A DNA stretch of 34,951 nucleotides from a virus, in IMG/VR virus record IMGVR_UViG_3300050026_000390, positions 1 to 34,951 of that record; one strand, written 5' to 3'. Positions within the stretch are counted from its first letter, which is position 1. Each line of letters begins with the position of its first letter. A model generated the notes under the pieces. That model was not told where the DNA came from. It saw only the letters and a program-made list of their open reading frames with translations, and did no database searches. Positions 1 through 22,834 of the stretch are shown in pieces. The position numbers were made by a program, and so were the translations under genes.

Positions 1-2181
1 ACCCATATGACCGGCATTCCAAAGAGCTTTACCAGCACCTTGATATAATGTTTGCGCCAACATAGTGAAGTGATGGAAGAACGATAAAGATAAATCATAA
101 GTTTTTACTATCCCCTGATACTTTAATAATTTTCTTGCAGTGTCTATTTTTCTAATGAAATCAGGTTCGGTAATTGCTTTTAATCCTTCGGCGATACCTT
201 TAGGAGCGAATAAATGATAATTTATTAAATGAGGTTTGCCGTCTTTATCAACAAACATAGCCCCCTTTTGTGTGCCTACATCCGTCCAGCCTTCGGGAGC
301 GTTTTTATCTGTCTTCCATGTAGCGATTTTGTTATCTACCATAGCATCGGCTAACTTACGAGCCGTATTTACTCTTGCCATTTCAGCATTATGAATAGTT
401 ATAGTTTCCGCTAAATCAGTAGTAGCAAATTGTTTGCCTGCTTTTACTGCATCAAATTCAGTATCGAATGTTCTTTGTTTCGCATGAGAAGTAGTCTGTC
501 TTAATCCTTGATTCATTTCTGTTTTAATGAAATCTTTCGGAGGTTCACTTTTATAAATACGATTCATGTAATTTTCTTTTACATCTGAAATTGTTCCAAC
601 ATCTTTAGCAACTCCACCGGATTCATTAAAATATTTGTTCACGTCACCAAGTTTAGATTTCGCTTCAGAGGACAAATTCAAAGCCTTCCGTAATTGATCT
701 TGATAAGGTTTGAATTTTGGATCTTTTAAGGCTTCTTCTATAATTGCCTTGTCTCCATTAGCGGCTTTATTCCAGAACATCCCCTGACGCTCTAATTTAT
801 CAGGAACAACATTTTTAATATCAGCGACTAATCGATTGCCTCTAACCAACTGAATATTTTTAATACCAGTGAATTGTTCCCTTAAACTTTTAGCGGCTTT
901 TTTATCAGTATTCCCCAAATCTTCTAAGTTAAATTGTTCATTTTTTACATATTTATTTTTAGAAAAATAATCATCTTTTTGCTTTTGGACTTCGTCCCAT
1001 ACTTTATTAAGGTGCGGTTTTATTTTGTCGCCAAATTCGTCAATCATTTTCTTTGACCATTCACCAAAATCTCTTAATCCTGATTCAAGATGATAACCGC
1101 CTATAACAGCAACATCTTTTAACCATTTGGCGAATTGACCCGCAGCAGCTCCAGATTCATATAAATTAGGATCGTAAGCACCAAGTCGTTCCTTCGCTGC
1201 TTCATACGCTGAATCTGTGAATATAGTGTTCTTTGGAGTTTCTTCTTTCGATTCTTCACTTATAGGTGGAGTTTCGAGTTTGTCCTCTAAAGTGCCTGAA
1301 TTTTGCGTTTCACGGTCTGTTTCACGGGAGTTTGTGCCGATGTCGGGGGTTTGTTTCTTCTCCGGCTCTATCCATTTAAGAGTTTGTGGAGCTTTTTCTT
1401 GGTTGAGACCTTCACCGTTCCCTTGTGTAGTTCCCTCTTTAGCTTGGTCTGCTGTTGGCTCGATAGAGGAGTCCCTTTTGAGAGGAGAAATGCTATCTGT
1501 TTCTTGGTTTTGGTTTTCATTTGGAACCTCTTCCTTTGGAATATTTTTTATTTCAGGATACTTACTTTCAAGATGATTTTTAATCGCTTCGTGTCCTTTG
1601 CCCATAAGGTAAAGTGTTATTCCTTCCCTTGCGATGCTACCTAATTTCTTGTCGGTTTCAGGACTACCGATAGTTGGCAATTTAATACCCATCATATTGA
1701 AAAACTTATCTGTAAGCTCTGAACCTTTATTCACTGCTTCAAACGGTAAATTCATCGCTTTATTAACACCAGAGACTATTTCTTTGCCAACTGTACCGGT
1801 ATTACTAATAGCTTCGCTTGCCTCTGAATATGGGGACATACCACCGCCCATCAAACCATGGAGAATGGCGGCGGGAATTTTAGCAACCGGACTTACTTTA
1901 TCGTCACTCAATTCCTGTGTCATGGGATTAACAATCTGTCGTAAAAATGGCATTTGTTGACTACCGGAGGCCATATCTAAAGCGGCTGTTCCTTCGTCAT
2001 TTCCCTCGTTATATTGATCTCTTAATTTATTCAAACTCTCGTTACGGTTTTGAGAAAGAATCTTGAATTGTGCGGGAGTAGTTGTTTGAACCGCCTGATC
2101 AGAACTATTTGAGTTATTAAGATTCAGATAAAAATCTCTGATCAAATCACTCGAAGTTTTATTGTCGTCACTATTTGGCAT
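1..2181 (-). CDS. partial large internal-virion / polyvalent protein (C-terminus beyond window)
   Basis: An open frame of 727 codons runs from an ATG at 2181 (N-terminus MPNSDDNKTS) off the left edge with no stop, so the protein exceeds 727 residues. The start overlaps the stop of the upstream gene by 11 nt, which implies translational coupling. The N-terminal part is polar and helical. A Glu/Lys/Pro/Thr-rich low-complexity linker follows at about residues 190-320, then a long helical region ending near FFHHFTMLAQTLYQGAGKAL. The size, the last place in the late operon and the helical composition fit the very large internal virion or DNA-ejection proteins of podoviruses, often annotated as large polyvalent proteins. 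I saw no enzyme motif. The coding call is firm; the function is inferred from context. Confidence 0.8.
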   Translation of the reverse strand, partial: MPNSDDNKTSSDLIRDFYLNLNNSNSSDQAVQTTTPAQFKILSQNRNESLNKLRDQYNEGNDEGTAALDMASGSQQMPFLRQIVNPMTQELSDDKVSPVAKIPAAILHGLMGGGMSPYSEASEAISNTGTVGKEIVSGVNKAMNLPFEAVNKGSELTDKFFNMMGIKLPTIGSPETDKKLGSIAREGITLYLMGKGHEAIKNHLESKYPEIKNIPKEEVPNENQNQETDSISPLKRDSSIEPTADQAKEGTTQGNGEGLNQEKAPQTLKWIEPEKKQTPDIGTNSRETDRETQNSGTLEDKLETPPISEESKEETPKNTIFTDSAYEAAKERLGAYDPNLYESGAAAGQFAKWLKDVAVIGGYHLESGLRDFGEWSKKMIDEFGDKIKPHLNKVWDEVQKQKDDYFSKNKYVKNEQFNLEDLGNTDKKAAKSLREQFTGIKNIQLVRGNRLVADIKNVVPDKLERQGMFWNKAANGDKAIIEEALKDPKFKPYQDQLRKALNLSSEAKSKLGDVNKYFNESGGVAKDVGTISDVKENYMNRIYKSEPPKDFIKTEMNQGLRQTTSHAKQRTFDTEFDAVKAGKQFATTDLAETITIHNAEMARVNTARKLADAMVDNKIATWKTDKNAPEGWTDVGTQKGAMFVDKDGKPHLINYHLFAPKGIAEGLKAITEPDFIRKIDTARKLLKYQGIVKTYDLSLSFFHHFTMLAQTLYQGAGKALWNAGHMG

Positions 2182-3259
2182 TCGGTTCCTCTGGTTCATA
2201 GCCAAACTTAAACTGTCCCCATGAAGATATTATCCGCGAATCATTAAAATCTTTTATTTCTCCTGATTCAAATTTTTTCTTGACCCAATTTATGAATAGA
2301 TTTCTTGCCTCCGGTTTATTCAAAGCCTTTTCGTAATCTTGATTATATTTTTTCGCATTCGCTTTGTTCTCGTTATAAAAATCATCAACGTATTTTCTGG
2401 CACTTTTCGGCATCATGGAATACAGCATTTGCTCATTATTATAAGCGGTTGTATTTATTCTATCACGCAATATCTTTAGAGCTTCCGGAGAAGCACTTCC
2501 TGTAGTTTTGCCTTTTGCATAATCCTCTTTCATCTTTAACATCTCATCATCATTATTGTTAAAATCCTTTAATGTTTTATTAAACTTTTCGGGATCTTCG
2601 ATTTCATCGCCTTTGGTTATTCCGGTTGTAAAAACTTTTCTACTGCCATCATCATACATGGCCTCTAAAGTTTTGTGACCGTTTGCATCATACCCCTCAA
2701 CGCTTCCTATGTGTTTGGGTAAGTAAAACGGATTCCCTTTTCTCGTTCCTTTTACTTCGCCAGTTTCACTATCTTTTACTAAAGTAACATTAGGTTTTGA
2801 ATAATCATACTTTATCTTTGGTTTATTAATTTCCTGATAGTCTTTGTATTTCGTAAAATCCGCATTATTAATGTCCCCATATTCTTCAGGTGTAAGATTC
2901 ACGCCACTAACTAATTTTTTTACCAGCGCGCTACTTTTTGCGTTCTTAAATTTATCTTCATTTTTTTTATTATATTCTTGGATATGTCCTAATTGCAACA
3001 ACCCGGTTTCATCAAGATCCGTCAGGGCTTTGTTCTTCTGTTCAGGCGAACTATCTGGATTGTTTATTAAACCAATATTGGTTTTTCTTCCCTCATTAAG
3101 AGCTTGCTTTTCTTTTAGCTTCGCCTGTCGTTCTCGTTCCTCTTTTTGAGTCTGGTATTCCTCGCTCTGTTTTTGACGCAAATTTTCCTGATAGTTCTGT
3201 GCGCTTTGGTCATAGGACTTGTCAAACCCTTCAATAAAATACTTTCCTGGATTACCCAT
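2171..3259 (-). CDS. hypothetical coiled-coil virion protein, 362 aa
   Basis: The 362-residue product starts MGNPGKYFIEGFDKSYDQSA. It has a strongly charged, Gln/Glu/Lys/Arg-rich stretch at about residues 25-65 that should form a coiled coil. The rest is hydrophilic and helix-rich, with no cysteine motif, signal peptide or catalytic signature. It starts 1 nt after the stop of the upstream gene and overlaps the next gene by 11 nt, so it sits in a tight cluster with the giant downstream protein. Its position between the tail genes and the giant protein suggests a second internal-virion or ejectosome component. That is inference; I do not recognise the family. Confidence 0.75.
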   Translation of the reverse strand: MGNPGKYFIEGFDKSYDQSAQNYQENLRQKQSEEYQTQKEERERQAKLKEKQALNEGRKTNIGLINNPDSSPEQKNKALTDLDETGLLQLGHIQEYNKKNEDKFKNAKSSALVKKLVSGVNLTPEEYGDINNADFTKYKDYQEINKPKIKYDYSKPNVTLVKDSETGEVKGTRKGNPFYLPKHIGSVEGYDANGHKTLEAMYDDGSRKVFTTGITKGDEIEDPEKFNKTLKDFNNNDDEMLKMKEDYAKGKTTGSASPEALKILRDRINTTAYNNEQMLYSMMPKSARKYVDDFYNENKANAKKYNQDYEKALNKPEARNLFINWVKKKFESGEIKDFNDSRIISSWGQFKFGYEPEEPNAK

Positions 3260-3260
3260 A

Positions 3261-3686
3261 TTACCATCCGCCTAATAGTCCACTTAATTTAGTCCCCGCT
3301 GCTGAACCAACTCCGCCTAATGCACTGCCTCCCAATTTCCCGCCTATTCCTGCAATTGTATCTAAGAAATTAGGTTTAGCGTCTTCATATTCTCCCAACC
3401 CCAAGAGTTGAGAAAGTACCTGCATGTGATTCTGCTGAGTCATTTGCTCGGAACGAGCATTAACATCAGAAATCTGTTGTCCGGAGTTACTGTAGATATC
3501 TGACTCTGCCGCTCCACTAATACCCGATCTGCCCATACCCGTACTTGAAAATTTTCCCAACAGATCCTTTACGCGTTTTCTTGTTTGCTGATTAATGCCA
3601 GCGGTGGCACTCGAAGCGTAATCGTTGGCGGCATTGTTGTTATTATATTCATTCATCATTAATTGTTCTATGTTATCCAAGTCCAT
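3261..3686 (-). CDS. hypothetical small virion protein with Gly/Ala-rich C-terminus, 141 aa
   Basis: The 141-residue product has an Asn-rich N-terminus (NEYNNNNAANDYASS), a Gln/Ser-rich helical middle and a hydrophobic Gly/Ala/Leu tail at about residues 112-141 (IAGIGGKLGGSALGG). Such a tail could insert in or associate with membrane, as in internal proteins ejected with phage DNA. The Shine-Dalgarno AGGAGG lies 5-6 nt before the ATG, inside the last codons of the neighbouring HNH gene, whose coding region overlaps this start by 14 nt. It probably belongs to the ejection cluster with the two genes downstream. Function unknown. Confidence 0.75.
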   Translation of the reverse strand: MDLDNIEQLMMNEYNNNNAANDYASSATAGINQQTRKRVKDLLGKFSSTGMGRSGISGAAESDIYSNSGQQISDVNARSEQMTQQNHMQVLSQLLGLGEYEDAKPNFLDTIAGIGGKLGGSALGGVGSAAGTKLSGLLGGW

Positions 3687-4200
3687 CTAACGCCTCCTGA
3701 TATTTTTGTGCTGCAATGTTTTCGTCTGTAAAGTAACCTAAATGTTTGCGAACACCATTTATGCCTATCTGCGAACACCATTTTTTGTTCTGTTCGTGCC
3801 AATATACACCCGTGTATTCAGATGTACGCGTTTTTCTTTTAGCCGCTTTAGTAGTATTTTCTCTTGCTGTTAAAAGTTGAAGATTGTCAATTCTATTATT
3901 CAGTTTATCATCGTCTTTGTGGTCAACTTGTAAGTCATCTCTTTGACCTTCACCGAAATAATCCCAAACGAGAAGATGAACCCTATACATAAAGGTTTTA
4001 TTCTCTTTGCTTAAGTGACAACCTAAATAACCATTTCCATTCAGACCTAATACTAAAATTCTTTCTTTCTTGCCTTGATTTCTTCCAGATGAGTCGGTAA
4101 AGAACTTTCTAAGTGATTTGATCTTCCCAAAATTAGATATTTCGTAATATCCTTCGTAACCTTTAATGGGTTTCCATTGTTCGATTAATTCGGTAAGCAT
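3673..4200 (-). CDS. NUMOD4-HNH homing endonuclease, cassette copy 1
   Basis: Free-standing homing endonuclease that would cut DNA at a target lacking the insertion. The NUMOD4 motif EQWKPIKGYEGYYEISNFG lies at about residues 7-25. The HNH core follows (VHLLVWDYFGEG, then LQVDHKDDDKLNNRIDNLQL), and a C-terminal AP2-like DNA-binding module begins EYTGVYWHEQNKKW. I chose the ATG at 4200 because AGGAG lies 5 nt upstream, displayed in a hairpin loop. The frame is also open upstream to a GTG at 4334 that overlaps the previous gene's stop (GTGA), which would add a hydrophobic N-terminus. The last codons run into the start of the next gene. Same cassette type as the HNH genes starting at 9768 and 16422. 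Confidence 0.88.
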   Translation of the reverse strand: MLTELIEQWKPIKGYEGYYEISNFGKIKSLRKFFTDSSGRNQGKKERILVLGLNGNGYLGCHLSKENKTFMYRVHLLVWDYFGEGQRDDLQVDHKDDDKLNNRIDNLQLLTARENTTKAAKRKTRTSEYTGVYWHEQNKKWCSQIGINGVRKHLGYFTDENIAAQKYQEALDGLG

Positions 4201-4285
4201 AATAACTCCTGTGGTTATTCCTGATAGTTGTTCAGCGGAAGCGTAATCAGGCGTTACGCTTTTCGGATTGCAATTCCTATCCGCT
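4201..4285 (-). ncRNA. structured leader RNA of HNH cassette, copy 1
   Basis: Read on the minus strand, the leader has four stems. P1 pairs AGCGGA (4280-4285) with TCCGCT (4234-4239). P2 is GGA/TCC closing a self-complementary TTGCAA loop (4265-4277). P3 is a perfect 7-bp hairpin AGCGTAA/TTACGCT with a 7-nt loop CGCCTGA (4240-4260). P4 is AATAAC/GTTATT with loop CACAGGA (4201-4219). Loop bases CCTGA can pair with TCAGG at 4220-4224, forming a pseudoknot that abuts P4. P4 shows the Shine-Dalgarno in its loop and the ATG follows directly. Copies 2 and 3 have the same architecture. Likely role: control of HNH translation (inference). Confidence 0.75.
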
Positions 4286-4319
4286 AAAAATATTAATAAC
4301 AATATAATAAAAATCTTTT

Positions 4320-4517
4320 TCACAAATTTGTACCCGTTTTTATCCACTTTCCTGAAACCATCTCATAAGAATTATGTGTCCCATCGGGATTTTTGATAAA
4401 TACTTTACTAAAATCTCTCACACTTTTTACATCCGGCAACTTTGTGCAAACCTGTGAAACCGGATGGAAGTATTTCCCGATTTCTGCAAGATGCTCTGAA
4501 TTTAATTTCTCACTCAT
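4320..4517 (-). CDS. hypothetical protein, 65 aa
   Basis: A small soluble protein (MSEKLNSEHLAEIGKYFHPV...) with no cysteine pattern, membrane segment or recognised domain. It overlaps the upstream secreted beta-helix gene by 4 nt (ATGA). Its stop overlaps an alternative GTG start of the HNH copy 1 frame. The tight packing between tail-region genes supports a real late gene, perhaps a small tail or head accessory protein. Family not recognised. Confidence 0.65.
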   Translation of the reverse strand: MSEKLNSEHLAEIGKYFHPVSQVCTKLPDVKSVRDFSKVFIKNPDGTHNSYEMVSGKWIKTGTNL

Positions 4518-5689
4518 TTTCTTATCCTTAATCTTTTTGAAACAGTTGGGGCTATATATGGCGGATTGTTCCTCAAATAAGGATAGCCGTCATTCGCATT
4601 TGGATCTATCTTCCAAATATTCACAAAGTCCCAGCCCGTAAATGTACCTTGAGTTTTCATCTGTGACGTTGATTTTGGGTAAGCTCTTGGGGTGGCACCA
4701 CCTTCTGCACCATCTCTATTGCCACCTGCAACAGTTGAATCAAAATAACATGATGAAGCATTCACGAGATAATAATTAGCAAAACCATCTACGGGAGTAC
4801 TTAACATTGTAGGAACAGAATAACAATTAGAATCAGCGTTTACTGTAGTCGAAAATCCACAACTTACCAAAGGGTTACCACCATTTATTTTAACTCTTGA
4901 ATAACAATTTCTTATTTCTTGAGAAGACCCAATACCTTGGACGTAACTATTGGATACTCCAGCACTACAATATAAGGTTGTGGAATCAACGAAGCATTCA
5001 GACACTCCTGGTCTTCCTGCGGAATTGAATAAACCGCTTATATTTATTGCTTGAGGAGAAATATAAGTATTGTGAATTGAAATATTTAATCCAATAGATG
5101 AACATTTCTTGTACTCAACAGCAAATGTGTTGCCAAATGATGTTACACCCCATGCGTTTACGCCATAGTAATGACCATCAGCAAGTGTAATATCAATATT
5201 ACAGTCTCTTATGTGAAAGCTCTGCATGCCCCCTGTTGTAGAACCAGGGGCTAATAGCCCAACAGTTATATAATTATATTCCATAATTCCTGTTCCAGCA
5301 TCACTAATTATTATTGAACAATGATAAAGAGTAAGATTATTAATACCCCCAGAATAATACGCGAACAAACCCAACTCACTGTGATGATATAGTGAGTCGT
5401 AGTGCATGGAAGTAATACGCATATTGCTTATTGTTTTTCCATTACCATTTAAATAACCAGAAAAATTATTTGTGGCAGGGTATGTATATCCTATCGGTGT
5501 CCAGTCACCATAACCTGATAAGTCAATATCATTATTTAGTATGTAGTAACTACTTAGGTGATTTCTAACGCTGTCTAATTGCACGGCAGAAGCAATCTGG
5601 TAAGGATCACTGGACGTGCCACTTCCACCACTAAACTGCGCTTGAATAAAAAGAGGAATAAATAATAATATGATTAATAATTTTTTCAT
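4514..5689 (-). CDS. secreted GLUG-like beta-helix protein, 391 aa, possible tailspike
   Basis: The N-terminus MKKLLIILLFIPLFIQAQFS is a clear Sec signal peptide with cleavage likely after AQA/Q-A. The mature region opens with a Gly/Ser stretch and a segment typical of GLUG/filamentous-haemagglutinin repeat proteins (DPYQIASAVQLDSVRN, then DIDLSGYGDWTPIGYTY). Repeated short strands such as LGLFAYYSGGINNLTL are consistent with a right-handed parallel beta-helix. The C-terminus is basic (SKRLRIRK). It overlaps the upstream fibre-like gene by 4 nt. A beta-helix in the tail region suggests a receptor-binding spike, but a signal peptide is unusual for a virion protein; a host-surface decoration exported during infection is an alternative. 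Confidence 0.75.
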   Translation of the reverse strand: MKKLLIILLFIPLFIQAQFSGGSGTSSDPYQIASAVQLDSVRNHLSSYYILNNDIDLSGYGDWTPIGYTYPATNNFSGYLNGNGKTISNMRITSMHYDSLYHHSELGLFAYYSGGINNLTLYHCSIIISDAGTGIMEYNYITVGLLAPGSTTGGMQSFHIRDCNIDITLADGHYYGVNAWGVTSFGNTFAVEYKKCSSIGLNISIHNTYISPQAINISGLFNSAGRPGVSECFVDSTTLYCSAGVSNSYVQGIGSSQEIRNCYSRVKINGGNPLVSCGFSTTVNADSNCYSVPTMLSTPVDGFANYYLVNASSCYFDSTVAGGNRDGAEGGATPRAYPKSTSQMKTQGTFTGWDFVNIWKIDPNANDGYPYLRNNPPYIAPTVSKRLRIRK

Positions 5690-9189: not shown

Positions 9190-9768
9190 TTATACATTTT
9201 GCAATTCATTAATTTCTGCTAATTTATTTTGATACGCATTTGCTGCATCAATTTCATTGACATAACAACCAAGCGATAATCTTTTACCATTTAACACCAA
9301 CCTCGCCATCCACTTCTTCGTATGTTTATGCCAACCAACACCAATATATTTAGATTTTTTATTTTCCATAGTCATGCGATATTTATTGCTATTTTTGCGA
9401 GCCGTTAATAATTGGAGATTATCAATCCTATTGTTTGATTTGTTATTATCAATGTGGTCAACTTCTAATTTATGTCCGTCTCTTTCACCTTGACCAAAAT
9501 GTTCCCAAACTAAGCGATGTATGGTATGCGTTTTTCGTATACCACTCTTTAGCAAGCAAACTCGATGATAACCTTCAGCCGTGAATGGCTTCAAAATACG
9601 TTCAGGCGTATTGTAGACCCCACCCGTATTTGTTATACATCGTTTAGGCAGAGATTTAACTCTACCAAAATTGGAAATCTCATAAAGTCCTTCGTAGCCT
9701 TTGATAGGCACAAACTTTTCAGTAACTAAAACGCCATCAATGTAAGTGGTAAGTAATTCGGTTTGCAT
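9190..9768 (-). CDS. NUMOD4-HNH homing endonuclease, cassette copy 2 (divergent)
   Basis: The NUMOD4 motif is at about residues 18-36 (KFVPIKGYEGLYEISNFGR). The HNH core is IHRLVWEHFGQGERDGHKLE then VDHIDNNKSNNRIDNLQLLT, and the C-terminus is AP2-like (SKYIGVGWHKHTKKW). The ATG at 9768 has GGAG 6 nt upstream in a hairpin loop. An alternative in-frame ATG at 9894 overlaps the stop of the upstream adaptor-like gene (ATGA) and would add a hydrophobic segment. Compared with copies 1 and 3 it has about 11 extra residues before NUMOD4. It sits between an adaptor-like gene and the nozzle gene, interrupting neither. Confidence 0.88.
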   Translation of the reverse strand: MQTELLTTYIDGVLVTEKFVPIKGYEGLYEISNFGRVKSLPKRCITNTGGVYNTPERILKPFTAEGYHRVCLLKSGIRKTHTIHRLVWEHFGQGERDGHKLEVDHIDNNKSNNRIDNLQLLTARKNSNKYRMTMENKKSKYIGVGWHKHTKKWMARLVLNGKRLSLGCYVNEIDAANAYQNKLAEINELQNV

Positions 9769-9769
9769 T

Positions 9770-9856
9770 GTAAACTCCGCATTTACTCCGATTGTAGGAT
9801 ATTCAGCGGAAGTATATTCGGAAGATATACTTGTCGGATGTACAGTCCTATCCGCT
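9770..9856 (-). ncRNA. structured leader RNA of HNH cassette, copy 2 (covarying)
   Basis: Same fold as copies 1 and 3 with different bases. P1 AGCGGA (9851-9856) pairs with TCCGCT (9805-9810). P2 is GGA/TCC around TGTACA (9836-9848). P3 is AGTATAT/ATATACT with the 7-nt loop CTTCCGA (9811-9831). P4 is GTAAA/TTTAC with loop TGCGGAG, which holds the Shine-Dalgarno (9770-9786). Loop bases TCCGA pair with TCGGA at 9787-9791, directly adjacent to P4. Relative to copy 1, three P3 pairs and two pseudoknot pairs have changed on both strands, and P4 has changed in a paired way. This is direct evidence for selection on the RNA fold. Confidence 0.78.
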
Positions 9857-9890
9857 AAAATTATTAATACAAATATAATTAAAATGTATC

Positions 9891-10568
9891 TCATAGGTCA
9901 CGAATTTTTAAGGATATTCCTTTATTAATACAGCCCTCCATCGAATACTTGGTAAAAGTCTCTCCATTGTATTGCTTAGAGAGCAAAAGCATGCTTTCTT
10001 TCAAATAATCTTCTTCCATGTCTTTAAATAGCCATTTTAGCATACCGAGTAAAATTAATTTATCGTATTGTGTGGGGAAGGAAGTATTGCCCGTATAAGC
10101 ACTATTTAGAAAACTTCCAAAGTCTCCGGCAACAGTTGAAGACGGACTGTAAAAATTAAAGTTAGACTGAAAATTCACAACCATAGTACTGGCAATGATA
10201 GGATTACCGTAAACCCAAATTTTAGGTATGGCACTTGAGTAAAGAATCGTATAATGACCCGGAGAACAGTTAAGGGCTACTCTTGACTGCATCCATGCGG
10301 TTGACTTTTCTGTTAACTTTTCGCATCCAATCATAACATCTTTTACAGTCATTATTGCAGCGTTAAGATCATACTTATCCGTTCCCGCTATGATGGGAAT
10401 AGACATAGAAGTTTCAATGACTCCAAAAGCTTTTTGGATATCACCACAGGTTTCAGAGAGCATGGTTACAACGTCTCCTTCCCCGAGCACAATTTCTGTA
10501 ACTCTTCGCTTAAGACATTCTAATGAATACCTTCTTTTAAATAGGTCAACTATCTCCGCTAAAATCAT
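9891..10568 (-). CDS. head-tail adaptor / tail connector-like protein, 225 aa
   Basis: A mixed alpha/beta protein of about 225 residues. It has a helical N-terminus (MILAEIVDLFKRRYSLECLK), a central beta region and a helical C-terminus (LLGMLKWLFKDMEEDYLKES). This is the usual outline of T7 gp11-like and gp6-like adaptors that stack on the portal. It is the third of three similar-sized genes between the head genes and the nozzle gene. The assignment rests on size, fold pattern and order, not on a diagnostic motif. Confidence 0.65.
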   Translation of the reverse strand: MILAEIVDLFKRRYSLECLKRRVTEIVLGEGDVVTMLSETCGDIQKAFGVIETSMSIPIIAGTDKYDLNAAIMTVKDVMIGCEKLTEKSTAWMQSRVALNCSPGHYTILYSSAIPKIWVYGNPIIASTMVVNFQSNFNFYSPSSTVAGDFGSFLNSAYTGNTSFPTQYDKLILLGMLKWLFKDMEEDYLKESMLLLSKQYNGETFTKYSMEGCINKGISLKIRDL

Positions 10569-15855: not shown

Positions 15856-16422
15856 TTAATCTAATTTATTCAAATATGCAAACTCGCCAGATAGCTCCAT
15901 TACTCTATTATTGTAAGCAAGGGCAGCTTCTTCGTTTGTTTTGAAACAACCCAAATATTTATGTATGCCATTAGAACTAATCTGGGCTATCCAATAAGAG
16001 TAAATTTTGCCTTTATATTTTTTTGAAGAAAGACAGACACCGGTATATTTTGAAGACTTATCTTTATGCAAATAAGTTTTAATTACGTTTTCTCTCGAGG
16101 TTAATAATTGCAAATTATCAATTCTACAGTTTTGTTTATTATTGTCAACATGGTCAACTTGGATTTTTCTGTTATCTCTTTTGCCTACTCCAAAATGATC
16201 CCATACAACGCTGTGGATTGTATGCGCAAACGTTTTCTTCTCTTTGGTCAAATGACAAAGCAAATAACCCCCGCTATTAATATTTGACTTCAAAATTCTT
16301 TCTTCGTTATATCGATTATTGATCTTGCGCTTTAGGCTCTTTACTCTCCCAAGATTAGAGATTTCGTAAAGACCTTCGTAGCCCTTAATTGGTTTCCACT
16401 GTTCTTGTGATTCGGTAAACAT
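15856..16422 (-). CDS. NUMOD4-HNH-AP2 homing endonuclease, cassette copy 3
   Basis: NUMOD4 lies at about residues 7-26 (EQWKPIKGYEGLYEISNLGR). The HNH core follows (IHSVVWDHFGVGKRDNRKIQ, then VDHVDNNKQNCRIDNLQLLT) and a C-terminal AP2-type DNA-binding domain (SKYTGVCLSSKKYKGKIYSY through ELSGEFAYLN). The ATG at 16422 is served by AGGAG 5 nt upstream in a hairpin loop. An alternative in-frame ATG at 16548 overlaps the stop of the small upstream gene (TGATG). It is nearly identical to copy 1 in the leader, so the two cassettes are recent relatives. The AP2 part resembles that of the plus-strand endonuclease starting at 31693. Confidence 0.88.
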   Translation of the reverse strand: MFTESQEQWKPIKGYEGLYEISNLGRVKSLKRKINNRYNEERILKSNINSGGYLLCHLTKEKKTFAHTIHSVVWDHFGVGKRDNRKIQVDHVDNNKQNCRIDNLQLLTSRENVIKTYLHKDKSSKYTGVCLSSKKYKGKIYSYWIAQISSNGIHKYLGCFKTNEEAALAYNNRVMELSGEFAYLNKLD

Positions 16423-16510
16423 AATAACTCCTGTGGCTATTCCTGATTGAAGTTGTTCAGCGGAAGCGTAATCAGGCGTTACGCTTTTCGGATTGCAATT
16501 CCTATCCGCT
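16423..16510 (-). ncRNA. structured leader RNA of HNH cassette, copy 3
   Basis: P1 is at 16505-16510 with 16459-16464, the 7-bp P3 hairpin at 16465-16485, the pseudoknot partner TCAGG at 16442-16446, and P4 (AATAGC/GTTATT, one G-U pair) at 16423-16441 with the Shine-Dalgarno in its loop. It is identical to copy 1 from P1 to the end of P1' plus seven bases, but differs by a 3-nt insertion before the pseudoknot strand and by a C-G to G-U type change in P4. All proposed pairs are kept. Confidence 0.75.
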
Positions 16511-16547
16511 AAAATTGTCAATACAAATATAAGAAATATTTTAAACA

Positions 16548-16715
16548 TCAATTAAGCACCAAAGACCGCTTGTTAGTCATCCTAAGCGTGAAAACTTTTA
16601 CCTTACCCTCTCTCAACAATTTAACAACTATCGGAGTTTGAGGGTTAAAACTTTCTTCATCGACTGGAAGAACTATTTCTTTTTTGTTGGCAATCTTTAG
16701 AGAAATTTCAATCAT
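16548..16715 (-). CDS. small hypothetical protein after portal, 55 aa
   Basis: The ATG at 16715 overlaps the portal stop (ATGA), and the stop overlaps the alternative start of the HNH copy 3 frame (TGATG). The product (MIEISLKIANKKEIVLPVDE... ending RMTNKRSLVLN) is small, with alternating beta-like hydrophobic residues and a basic C-terminus. The double overlap supports translation in the late operon. Family not recognised. Confidence 0.6.
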   Translation of the reverse strand: MIEISLKIANKKEIVLPVDEESFNPQTPIVVKLLREGKVKVFTLRMTNKRSLVLN

Positions 16716-18887: not shown

Positions 18888-19248
18888 TGTCTCTCAGTAG
18901 ATCCACATATTTATGTAATATTTGTCCCGCTGTTTTCAAATTCTTTACTTTTGGAGTCTTCAGTTCGTTACAATATCCGTTTGCTGCTACTGTTTCTTTT
19001 GCGCATCCCTGCCAAGCATAAGTACTGCCTGAATGAGTTGAGATATCCAAGATTAGCGGCTGTTTCTTCTTTACCGGTATCCGTGCGATCAGACAAGTGT
19101 AACCTCTGTAAACATGCTCGTCAAAGTACTTTACCCACTCTTCTTCTGGCTGTGAAGTGCCGGTACGCTCCATGTTATCAAGCATGGAATTTAAGTGGGT
19201 TTTTAACTTCGCATCAGTGCTGTTGTCTGCTATTTTAATGAGACTCAT
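18874..19248 (-). CDS. hypothetical protein, 124 aa
   Basis: A 124-residue soluble protein (MSLIKIADNSTDAKLKTHLN...) with a beta-rich middle (YTCLIARIPVKKKQPLILDI) and a helical C-terminus. It is coupled by overlaps to the genes on both sides between the large terminase and the portal. No recognised motif; context suggests packaging or head assembly. Confidence 0.65.
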   Translation of the reverse strand: MSLIKIADNSTDAKLKTHLNSMLDNMERTGTSQPEEEWVKYFDEHVYRGYTCLIARIPVKKKQPLILDISTHSGSTYAWQGCAKETVAANGYCNELKTPKVKNLKTAGQILHKYVDLLRDNGKN

Positions 19249-19484
19249 TTGCTTGACTTCCTTACGCCGGCTCCAGGTTTTGTCTCATAATTAAGGTAGT
19301 TACTTCCCTGATGCTCATTAGTATGTTTGTCAGAGGGTTCCGGAAACTTTGAAAGACTCATTTTCCTTTTTATCCCTGCCGGTTTTTTGGCTACTGCTGC
19401 TTTAACTGATTTCTTTGCGGCTACCGGTTTTACAAACTGCAATGGTTTTACTGTTCTGTGTACTTTGAATTTTGGTATGCTCAT
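19245..19484 (-). CDS. small Lys/Ala-rich basic protein, 79 aa
   Basis: The product is strongly basic, with histone-tail-like composition (VKPVAAKKSVKAAVAKKPAG), and lacks hydrophobic segments. The ATG at 19484 (MSIPKFKVHRTVKPL) has GAGGC upstream, the same ribosome-binding context as the portal gene. It could bind DNA or RNA, for instance as a packaged basic protein. The low-complexity composition prevents family assignment. Confidence 0.6.
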   Translation of the reverse strand: MSIPKFKVHRTVKPLQFVKPVAAKKSVKAAVAKKPAGIKRKMSLSKFPEPSDKHTNEHQGSNYLNYETKPGAGVRKSSK

Positions 19485-19492
19485 TTTATGCC

Positions 19493-21676
19493 TCAAAAAG
19501 ATGTGATAGTTTTTGTTTCACGAATTAAATTTACCGCTGCTTGACGCGCGGTAATGGGTTGTATTTCTTTGGGTTTAATAGGCGCATAAAGATAATTTAC
19601 TATGTAGCGAAGAGCATCACAATTGGAAACTAAAATATTATTCGCATAATAATTATGAGCATCTTCAACTTCTAAGTTATAAACTGGCATTTTCATATTT
19701 AGGGGTTTTAGTTCTAAACCCTTGATAAATTGATCTTCTACTTGCAGCCCTGCAGTTCTGATGACAAAACTTTGACCTCGTAGGAAAAGGAGTTTTATAT
19801 TCTCGACCACAAAATTTACAATTGACGATAACCTGTTCCCTATCTTCCCAGCATTGCTTGCCGTGTTCGGAGTGCCATTGTCTTCCCTCGTTTGAGGCAT
19901 GCCATTGCTTTGTAAGTGGTCTGATCTTATCAAGGTTTTGTTTTCTTCTTTGAATTTGTCCAGGGGTTTTATTGTTCCCATGCAAAGATGCATGTTTTGA
20001 TTTTGTGAGAAGTTGTAGGTTAGAAATGTTGTTATTTTTTCTATTAAAATCTTTGTGATGGACTTCATATCCTTTCGGGACTTCTCCATATGATTCTGCG
20101 TAAATGATAACATGAAGTCTTTTGCGACCGTCTTTACATCCTCCGACGGGGGAGTAATAATTCCCGTCCCAATTATATTTTTGACCTTTGTAAGTAATTG
20201 ACATATTGAAACCTTTTTGATTGCAATATAATCAAAGTATCGCAATGAATCAATAGGTACTTTACCTCTTGCTGTATAAGTCGGATGATTGCCGGTACCG
20301 ATTAGCCCATACTCTCCAATAGTCAATTCGTAAACCATATCAACTCCAGTCATACAGGAAACTAAAACTTTTTTTATACCTTGTGAAGTAATAACATATT
20401 CACCAACTTTAACATCTTGAATATTTTTTAGTGAGTAGTCATGCATCAAAATCTTAGTATCAGCAATCAAACAACAATGGTCGTCTCTCTTAATCGGTTC
20501 TTCGTATTCGTTTTTAACTTCGCCAGGTTTCAATGCTTTCCATTTATAATTTCCGATCTCTCGAATTAAATTAACACAATTACTTGATATTTGCAAACGT
20601 CCGGACTTGAACATCTCATTTACTCGGTTGATTCCTTGCCTCACATCATTATCGGCATGGTTCCAGACAATGCCGTTTAATAAATATTCCATCGCAACGT
20701 TTGACCCGTCTCTTTCTACTTTTGAAATCGATGGATCTGCTATTTTATATCCTCTATCAAAAAACTTTCTTGTTTTTAATTCTGTTGATACATCACTTAT
20801 AAGTTTCCCAGCTTCATAATATTCATCATAAAACGTAGTAATCCCATCATAATTTGTTGCTGCAAATAAAACAGCTGTTGGATTTCTAAAACCATAATCC
20901 ATGCAGATGGTTATTTCGTCTATATCAAACGGGTCGTAATAACTAGTTTTATGTTTAGCTTCAATAAATTCGTTGAATACTAATCCCTCAAAATCTTCCC
21001 ACGAACAAAATACATATCTCTTAACCCATCGCTCGGGATATGCTAAAAGTTCTTTAACATAATCAGCGGGCAAGTAAATATTTTCCGTTGTGATAGCTTC
21101 AAAGAGTTCATAACCTTCAATCTGATTATTTTTCCATCTATCCCACAACCAATCGTGACCAGCGGGGTTACACGTTGCAAAGAAGTCTCTCCCTGAATCG
21201 TTACGTCTTAAGCGGCCTTGAAAAGCCAAAAATACAGCTTCCTGAATTTCCTCCAATTGGTCTATCGCAACAAAACCTAAATTCAGCGACTTTATCTTTT
21301 CGGTTGCTTCTCTTGAATCATCTAAGTTCATATAAAATAATCTTGACCCATTTATGAAGTCAATCCAGTGGTCTTGTTTGTTGTGATTTGATATTAATTC
21401 AGCAGGACAAATATCCAGAAAATCTTTTAGTGTTGTAGATTTTAATTCACCCAAATCTTTACGTCCAAGAACTCCGTAGTTGTTTTTATATGACGGATGG
21501 AATAATTGACAGAGTACCTCGATAATCAAACTTGTGGATTTCCCACAACCGAAGCCACCGGCCAATAATCTGTATTTTGATTTTGAATTGTGGAATTTAA
21601 CTTGTGTCGGTAAAGGTAAGCCTTGCGGGTTCTGTGAGTTTTTTGGATACGAAATTCTAACGGTTGCTTCAGACAT
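19493..21676 (-). CDS. terL: large terminase subunit interrupted by an intein, 727-aa precursor
   Basis: ATP-driven packaging motor and headful/site nuclease. The ATPase part has Walker A GGFGCGKST (residues 40-48) and Walker B FVAIDQLEEI (about 135-144). The nuclease part has conserved acidic residues at D260 (ICMDYGF) and D314 (IADPS). Its final motif is split by an intein at residues 402-685: the exteins read RDDHC then CDALRYIVNY, so the joined protein is about 443 aa and regains DDHCCDALRY. Insertion at a catalytic motif is typical of inteins. A separate HNH frame overlaps residues about 491-667. Confidence 0.9.
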   Translation of the reverse strand: MSEATVRISYPKNSQNPQGLPLPTQVKFHNSKSKYRLLAGGFGCGKSTSLIIEVLCQLFHPSYKNNYGVLGRKDLGELKSTTLKDFLDICPAELISNHNKQDHWIDFINGSRLFYMNLDDSREATEKIKSLNLGFVAIDQLEEIQEAVFLAFQGRLRRNDSGRDFFATCNPAGHDWLWDRWKNNQIEGYELFEAITTENIYLPADYVKELLAYPERWVKRYVFCSWEDFEGLVFNEFIEAKHKTSYYDPFDIDEITICMDYGFRNPTAVLFAATNYDGITTFYDEYYEAGKLISDVSTELKTRKFFDRGYKIADPSISKVERDGSNVAMEYLLNGIVWNHADNDVRQGINRVNEMFKSGRLQISSNCVNLIREIGNYKWKALKPGEVKNEYEEPIKRDDHCCLIADTKILMHDYSLKNIQDVKVGEYVITSQGIKKVLVSCMTGVDMVYELTIGEYGLIGTGNHPTYTARGKVPIDSLRYFDYIAIKKVSICQLLTKVKNIIGTGIITPPSEDVKTVAKDFMLSFTQNHMEKSRKDMKSITKILIEKITTFLTYNFSQNQNMHLCMGTIKPLDKFKEENKTLIRSDHLQSNGMPQTREDNGTPNTASNAGKIGNRLSSIVNFVVENIKLLFLRGQSFVIRTAGLQVEDQFIKGLELKPLNMKMPVYNLEVEDAHNYYANNILVSNCDALRYIVNYLYAPIKPKEIQPITARQAAVNLIRETKTITSF
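19622..20473 (-). mobile_element. intein in the large terminase (284 aa)
   Basis: The N-terminal splicing block starts at Cys402 (CLIADTKILMHDYS), with block B GTGNHPTY at 460-467. The C-terminal blocks F and G read VYNLEVEDAHNYYANNILVS then Asn685, followed by Cys686 as the +1 nucleophile. The penultimate residue is Ser, where His is usual, so the last cleavage step may be slower or use another residue. Between the splicing halves, residues about 490-662 match no endonuclease in this frame; instead an HNH gene lies there in the -1 frame. Splicing is expected from the motifs but not shown. Confidence 0.85.
19677..20204 (-). CDS. HNH homing endonuclease encoded out of frame inside the intein, 175 aa
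   Basis: A complete HNH gene in the -1 frame relative to terminase. It starts MSITYKGQKYNWDGNYYSP and has the core LHVIIYAESYGEVPKGYEVH then HKDFNRKNNNISNLQLLTKS. A C-terminal zinc finger follows (VNCKFCGREYKTPF, FCHQNCRAASRRS). The ATG at 20204 has AAAAAGG with 7-nt spacing, so it can be translated independently. In this frame a TGA lies nine or ten codons upstream, so it is not a simple continuation of the N-intein, although a -1 slip at C AAA AAG could reach it. It fills exactly the region where inteins normally hold their endonuclease. Confidence 0.85.
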   Translation of the reverse strand: MSITYKGQKYNWDGNYYSPVGGCKDGRKRLHVIIYAESYGEVPKGYEVHHKDFNRKNNNISNLQLLTKSKHASLHGNNKTPGQIQRRKQNLDKIRPLTKQWHASNEGRQWHSEHGKQCWEDREQVIVNCKFCGREYKTPFPTRSKFCHQNCRAASRRSIYQGFRTKTPKYENASL

Positions 21677-21758
21677 CTAAGCGCCTAAATATGTTTTGCC
21701 CTGAATTCTCGACACTTTGTTTTGATTTTAGTGAATTTTCAAGGTTTTTATTTTTCAT
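21669..21758 (-). CDS. possible leader peptide before large terminase, 29 aa
   Basis: The ATG at 21758 opens a short polar frame (MKNKNLENSLKSKQSVENSG...) whose stop lies 8 nt inside the terminase gene. Weak AAAAAG upstream. It lies between the arms of an 8-bp inverted repeat. It may be a translated coupling leader or chance. Confidence 0.25.
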   Translation of the reverse strand: MKNKNLENSLKSKQSVENSGQNIFRRLDV

Positions 21759-21775
21759 CTTTTTGTTGGCGCTTA
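21678..21775 (-). promoter_or_regulatory. long-range inverted repeat at the large terminase start
   Basis: TAAGCGCC at 21678-21685 and GGCGCTTA at 21768-21775 are perfect 8-bp complements. On the transcript, the downstream arm GGCGCTTA ends one base before the terminase ATG, so pairing would cover its ribosome-binding region. This could couple terminase translation to passage of ribosomes through the leader. Inference from pairing only. Confidence 0.4.
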
Positions 21776-21833
21776 CGTTTTTAATCTATTTTCGCAACAT
21801 TTCAAAATGACATATTCACACCGTAAAAACACT

Positions 21834-22142
21834 TTATTCAGTTTCTTTTTTAATATTCTCGAAAACTACTGTCACTTTAGTCTTTAAGTTTACTTCGGCA
21901 GTCGACCGTTTTGGTTTGTAGTACTCCGTAAAAGCTTTTGTAGCATCAAGAGCAATTTTAGGATCTTTGGAGTCGATAAACTTATTTATGTTTCGTTCGA
22001 TTTTTGATAGGATTAAATTAGTTTTGTCAAGCCCCAACGCTTCTTTTATCATCGTTTTATGCGCTTTCGAGCCTTTCCCGGCTTTCCCACCCCTTCTACC
22101 TTTCTCTCTTGCAAGTTCGCTATTCCCTGTTATATCACTCAT
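21834..22142 (-). CDS. terS: small terminase subunit-like, 102 aa
   Basis: A small basic protein that recognises packaging DNA and hands it to the large subunit. The N-terminal Arg/Gly/Lys-rich segment (REKGRRGGKAGKGSKAHK) is followed by helices (MIKEALGLDKTNLILSKIE) and SKDPKIALDATKAFTEYYKP, a pattern common in small terminases of this kind. It is the first gene downstream of the late promoter and precedes the large subunit. No separate HTH could be read with certainty. Confidence 0.7.
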   Translation of the reverse strand: MSDITGNSELAREKGRRGGKAGKGSKAHKTMIKEALGLDKTNLILSKIERNINKFIDSKDPKIALDATKAFTEYYKPKRSTAEVNLKTKVTVVFENIKKETE

Positions 22143-22232: not shown

Positions 22233-22736
22233 CTAAACAACTCTCTTTTCAACCGTGACAATCGTATCATTCTTTGCCCCACCATGCGGGACTAAAAGAA
22301 TTTCGATCATTTCGAAACCTCTGTTAATTCCAAATCCCATAGAGTTCCAACCGAAACAAATTACTAATCCATCAAGTTTTATTTTGGGAGCCAATAAGTT
22401 TTTAGCATCTGAATAAAAACTCATTTGTGTGTCGGTCATAAAAACTTTTCTTCCGATTCCTTTATAACATTCTGAAATTTGTCTTACCGAATAAGGAGGG
22501 TCAAATAATATTCCATTAAGTTCACTGGGTAGTTGTTTAGAAAATTCTTTTGCTTCTAAATGATATTTTGCTTTTATGTTTTGATTCAAATCATTAGTAA
22601 ATTCAGCCGGACTATTCTCACCGCAAAAGGGGTCAGCCCAACCGATGCCACCTTTTACGTGTTTTTGTAGTAGCTCTTTTATTGGTTTGATTAAAAAAGT
22701 GTGTCTATTCGGCATTGCCCAAATTCGATTTATCAT
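22233..22736 (-). CDS. DNA adenine methyltransferase-like protein, 167 aa
   Basis: An N6-adenine methyltransferase-like product that could protect phage DNA from host restriction. Motif I-like ADPFCGENS is near residues 34-42 and catalytic motif IV DPPYS near 79-83. The start at 22736 (MINRIWAMPNRHTF) matches the common opening of this short phage family; a GTG nine codons upstream is possible. At about 167 residues it is shorter than full Dam enzymes and has no obvious target-recognition domain. The Cys/Glu/Asn in motif I deviate from FxGxG, so activity is uncertain. Confidence 0.75.
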   Translation of the reverse strand: MINRIWAMPNRHTFLIKPIKELLQKHVKGGIGWADPFCGENSPAEFTNDLNQNIKAKYHLEAKEFSKQLPSELNGILFDPPYSVRQISECYKGIGRKVFMTDTQMSFYSDAKNLLAPKIKLDGLVICFGWNSMGFGINRGFEMIEILLVPHGGAKNDTIVTVEKRVV

Positions 22737-22834
22737 AATATCATTGTGGAATAAGTCCCTCACTCTCTCAACTCCTTTTGATTCGGATGGAATTTCATCT
22801 CTCTCCTTGTTGATTAAAATTGTTTGTTGCCGTG

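Follow-up and report, generated by a model that had tools for sequence, protein, structure and literature searches.

A phage terminase intein overlapped by an HNH endonuclease gene in a different reading frame

Can a phage intein and its presumed homing endonuclease be encoded by the same stretch of DNA in two different reading frames, or does such an overlap merely reflect an error in one metagenomic sequence? The question is raised by the large terminase gene of a viral contig (IMG/VR record IMGVR_UViG_3300050026_000390, positions 1 to 34,951; this whole stretch of 34,951 nucleotides is referred to as the window). The original prediction, made from the sequence alone, was that the large terminase (TerL) carries a canonical intein (Cys402 to Asn685, +1 Cys686) with no endonuclease in its own frame, and that the same DNA encodes a complete 175-residue HNH protein in the -1 frame, so that splicing and homing seem uncoupled; its author was not aware of a described family with this arrangement.

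The terminase intein and the HNH gene

The TerL open reading frame (19493-21676, minus strand, 727 aa) and the HNH open reading frame (19677-20204, minus strand, 175 aa) overlap in different frames, and the observation is confirmed. The features of the locus are as follows.

20474-21676, minus strand: TerL N-extein, residues 1-401, comprising the ATPase and most of the nuclease domain and ending in RDDHC (Terminase_3, PF04466, E = 1.9e-9)
20222-20473, minus strand: intein N-terminal splicing domain, with Cys402 and block B T461-x-x-H464 (N-terminal splicing-domain HMM, E = 4e-25; PF14890)
19697-20221, minus strand: middle of the intein frame overlapping the HNH gene, open, with no recognizable domain and no confident fold
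20212-20218, minus strand: Shine-Dalgarno-like AAAAAGG, 7 nt before the HNH ATG
19677-20204, minus strand: HNH endonuclease gene, 175 aa, -1 frame relative to the intein, with an ATG start, HNH core, WHxSxEGRxWH motif and C-terminal zinc ribbon (PF13392, E = 4e-17)
19622-19696, minus strand: intein C-terminal splicing domain, blocks F/G, ...VYNLEVEDAHNYYANNILVSN, Ser684-Asn685 (C-terminal splicing-domain HMM, E = 1e-15; TIGR01443 above cut-off)
19493-19621, minus strand: TerL C-extein beginning with +1 Cys686 (CDALRYIVNYLYAP...) and stop

The intein has the residues expected of class 1 inteins at position 1, in block B, at the C-terminal Asn and at +1, and C402, H464 and N685 are the only invariant columns across 63 host ORFs, of which 60 match Intein_splicing, 41 Terminase_6N and 34 Terminase_3. 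The intein profile also matches solved inteins, the best match by sequence profile being the gp41-1 split intein. The ends of the intein are fixed by a TerL relative that is 52% identical over the N-extein and lacks the intein (locus L346), which has the uninterrupted motif '...EEPIKKNDHAMDCIRYL'; the spliced window sequence, which reads ...EEPIKRDDHC/CDALRYI at the junction, aligns to it straight across without a gap, so that precise removal restores the conserved host protein and the predicted ends are right. An Rfam search of positions 19000-21900 returned no match at E ≤ 1 and the host frame is open, and a group I or II intron was rejected.

The HNH product belongs to the HNH_3 group, with H49, H50, N58, N62 and H71 invariant in the family alignment, and its sequence profile matches the intron homing endonuclease I-HmuI (1u3e, E = 5e-4), although a Foldseek search with its predicted structure finds no significant PDB match (best I-HmuI, E = 0.087). 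The window also contains three further HNH endonuclease genes matching other PHROG HNH families, free-standing among the structural genes (3673-4347, 9190-9894 and 15856-16551, all minus strand), and a DNA methyltransferase gene (phrog_11619; 22233-22763, minus strand) upstream of terL.

Conservation of the overlap among relatives

The original prediction put the chance of an open intein frame of this length at about 2 in 10,000. This is the right order when the phage's own codon usage is applied to an HNH gene of this protein sequence (P = 0.0006), but the probability is 0.39 if the HNH gene's own codons are permuted, indicating that the single window is weak evidence. HMMs for the two splicing domains and for the HNH family were run on all loci from five HNH scans of the viral collection, one scan of genomes, and named phages. 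Of 206 distinct units with both splicing domains and an HNH, 154 are contiguous with the HNH in the -1 frame, 26 are contiguous with the HNH in the +1 frame, 26 are split with the HNH gene between the halves, and none has the HNH in the intein frame. The first residue is Cys in 204 of 206 units and the +1 residue is Cys, Ser or Thr in all 206.

Synonymous permutation preserving protein and codon usage, applied to 178 contiguous loci (152 + 26), gives 352 expected stops in the intein frame of the -1 group and 226 in the +1 group, whereas the observed value is 0 in both, and this comparison is decisive. The unused frame is as expected in the -1 group (2946 observed, 2937 expected) and somewhat above expectation in the +1 group (213 observed, 176 expected). 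Split and free-standing relatives show no depletion in the HNH+1 frame (139 observed, 145 expected; 142 observed, 144 expected). The -1 relation leaves an intein frame that is intrinsically about 8-fold poorer in stops (352 against 2937 expected), which explains why it predominates.

Two outcomes had been specified in advance as fatal to the interpretation, namely frameshift errors concealing an ordinary in-frame intein-HNH fusion, and homologues in which the HNH frame is interrupted while the intein frame is conserved; neither is found. One metagenomic contig alone could not exclude a pair of compensating sequencing or assembly indels, but the same overlap is seen in 180 distinct contiguous loci, including the sequenced isolates TJE1 and Highwayman, and with two different frame offsets, and the avoidance of stops is statistical rather than positional, so the artefact explanation is refuted.

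Selection, predicted structure and expression

Between close pairs, substitutions in the overlap concentrate on HNH third positions (1755/1522/3075 in the -1 group), and the HNH translation is more similar than the intein-frame translation in nearly all close pairs (in every pair listed except the near-identical one). AlphaFold2 gives the HNH product a pLDDT of 94.4. The intein-frame product is confident (about 95) only in the two splicing domains, whereas residues 96-250 of the model are mostly at 46-61 and reach at most 77 in one 10-residue block. Foldseek matches of this model are inteins, with gp41-1 (6riz, TM(target) 0.86) among the top folds together with Ssp DnaB, in agreement with a HINT fold. 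It is very unlikely that the middle of the intein frame is itself a functional domain and the HNH frame a relic: although that frame is open and must be read through to make TerL, no confident fold is predicted there, conservation and third-position bias follow the HNH frame, the HNH catalytic residues are invariant, and the one conserved Gly of the intein-frame middle is forced by the HNH Trp-His codons (TGGCAY read as GGC).

An ATG lies near the HNH start in 167 of 180 contiguous loci, against 80 and 85 of 180 in the other two frames. Shine-Dalgarno matches are strong in the split forms but mixed in the contiguous ones, being weak in many contiguous relatives and especially in the +1 group. 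Alternatively, the HNH might be made as a C-terminal extension of TerL and the N-terminal splicing domain by programmed -1 ribosomal frameshifting, as could be suggested by the dominance of the -1 relation and by the HNH frame being open slightly upstream of the ATG. We regard this as unlikely, because the same HNH family also occurs in the +1 frame and as its own gene between split halves, neither of which is served by -1 slippage, because an ATG is enriched at the HNH start, and because the -1 excess is expected from the paucity of stops noted above; internal initiation is the simplest common route.

Interpretation and related architectures

The interpretation that the endonuclease is a separate gene overlapping the intein is supported, with two corrections: the arrangement is not wholly undescribed, and it belongs to a larger continuum that includes split inteins with the HNH gene between the halves and free-standing HNH genes beside an intact TerL. 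The best explanation, held with high confidence, is a mini-intein in the TerL nuclease motif (DHx/C-DALRY, the slash marking the insertion point) whose homing endonuclease is not a domain of the intein but a separate gene in the -1 frame, filling the gap between the N- and C-terminal splicing domains. In this view, ribosomes translating terL would read through the HNH region in the wrong frame and make a precursor with a meaningless linker of about 170 aa in the canonical insertion loop, and the HINT domains would fold around it and excise it, restoring TerL. Independent initiation at the internal ATG would make the HNH protein, which would cut intein-free terL at or near the DALRY site and drive copying of the whole element. 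The intein ends, the conserved overlap, selection against stops in the intein frame, protein-level selection in the HNH frame, the conserved ATG and the intact HNH residues are demonstrated computationally, whereas splicing, HNH synthesis, the target site and homing are inferred, since splicing, HNH translation, cleavage of the empty site and biased inheritance were not assayed. Three architectures of the same HNH family (nested out of frame, between split intein halves, and free-standing after an intact TerL) have interconverted repeatedly, which fits a collaborative-homing origin from a free-standing HNH gene and a mini-intein.

A role of the HNH protein as a terminase-associated packaging nuclease (HK97 gp74-like), retained for packaging rather than homing, has also been considered, as the gene is found in or next to terL and HNH proteins are discussed as packaging partners (PMC10448857, PMC4422536). 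This appears unlikely, given the profile match to I-HmuI, the nesting of the gene in inteins at several nearby sites, its absence from the region around the intact TerL of L346, and the description of the region near terL as a hot spot for homing endonucleases (PMC10448857).

Most units sit in the TerL nuclease motif DHxxDALRY, mainly 1 or 2 residues before its D, with a few at other offsets and some at other TerL sites, such as DFGYS/CDPSA in relative locus L004 and DALW/CDEM in relative locus L011. In the split forms TerL with the N-terminal splicing domain ends at a stop, the HNH follows, and the C-terminal splicing domain plus the TerL tail starts at its own ATG or GTG, often with a Shine-Dalgarno sequence and overlapping the HNH stop (for example locus L007, AAGGAGG-6-ATG). 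The window intein is contiguous and thus differs from these. Free-standing HNH genes of the family lie directly after an intact TerL carrying the intein target motif in four loci (L091, L087, L070 and L105). On a 227-sequence HNH tree (FastTree) the architecture changes at least 27 times by parsimony, and well supported branches alone force at least 5 changes for split and 6 for free-standing forms. With free-standing rows left out, the contiguous/split character needs 2 changes on a 94-row tree and 7 on the 227-row tree; roots and directions of change are not established by these trees.

A 2015 brucellaphage paper (PMC4422536) mentions a putative intein-encoded HNH gene out of frame within TerL; the mention is brief, concerns one phage group, and is given without intein motifs, splicing domains, frame analysis or relatives in the text, and direct homology with the brucellaphage records (JN939331, NC_019446, KC556897, KJ133688) was not tested. 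The ShiLan domain and Pacc40 insertion in mycobacteriophage DNA methylases (PMC11855218, 2025) likewise comprise an HNH ORF in another frame inside an insertion that is stop-free in the host frame and inferred to home, but those insertions have no splicing domains and their authors conclude that they are not inteins, whereas here both HINT halves are present and canonical. Split inteins in fractured genes, of which gp41-1 is an example, are reported to have a free-standing endonuclease between the halves (Dassa et al., 2009), as in the 26 split relatives, but the endonuclease there is of a family other than HNH_3. Bifunctional inteins carry an in-frame LAGLIDADG or HNH domain at the same insertion point, between blocks B and F, whereas the endonuclease here is in a different frame and is a separate protein. 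Collaborative homing has been described for introns and free-standing endonucleases in phages (PMC2988022, PMC10448857); here the partner would be a mini-intein. No paper describing the family, the absence of in-frame members or the link to split inteins was found in the literature searched, which lacked most subscription papers, and these, together with the scale of the family and the use of two frames, are what is new here.

The arrangement separates splicing from homing in a contiguous intein, provides a testable path between inteins, split inteins and free-standing homing genes, and constitutes a large, clean natural set of same-strand overlapping genes in which one frame is selected as a protein and the other only to stay open. 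A broader reading, about as likely as not, is that these elements form a widespread class of phage mobile elements in which the homing endonuclease gene is obligatorily overprinted on a mini-intein in another frame; the nested forms would then be the contiguous counterpart of fractured split inteins, and natural split inteins in phages would arise from, or fuse back into, overlapping-gene inteins through collaborative homing with a free-standing HNH gene.

This endonuclease family is missed by ordinary annotation, as the TJE1, Highwayman and OP947163 records have the nested form but list only TerL. In OP947163 (locus L016, 1346-3676) the TerL CDS is annotated from an internal start, the open frame beginning nearly 300 nt upstream. 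In Lactobacillus phage CL2, which has the split form, the C-terminal splicing domain plus TerL C-terminal tail (locus L019, 2538-2723) is unannotated and the annotated TerL stops after the N-terminal splicing domain, so the deposited TerL is incomplete. Vibrio phage 1.238 (locus L110, 146-3871) appears to have the split form, and its TerL appears to hold a second, LAGLIDADG-type intein near its N-terminus besides the split HNH-associated intein. Brochothrix phage BL3 (locus L111, 1936-2523) has a split TerL intein with a reduced, probably dead HNH between the halves. In L004 one TerL carries two inteins (2121-3062 and 3426-4592), each with an out-of-frame HNH, and the second has an extra degenerate HNH copy upstream.
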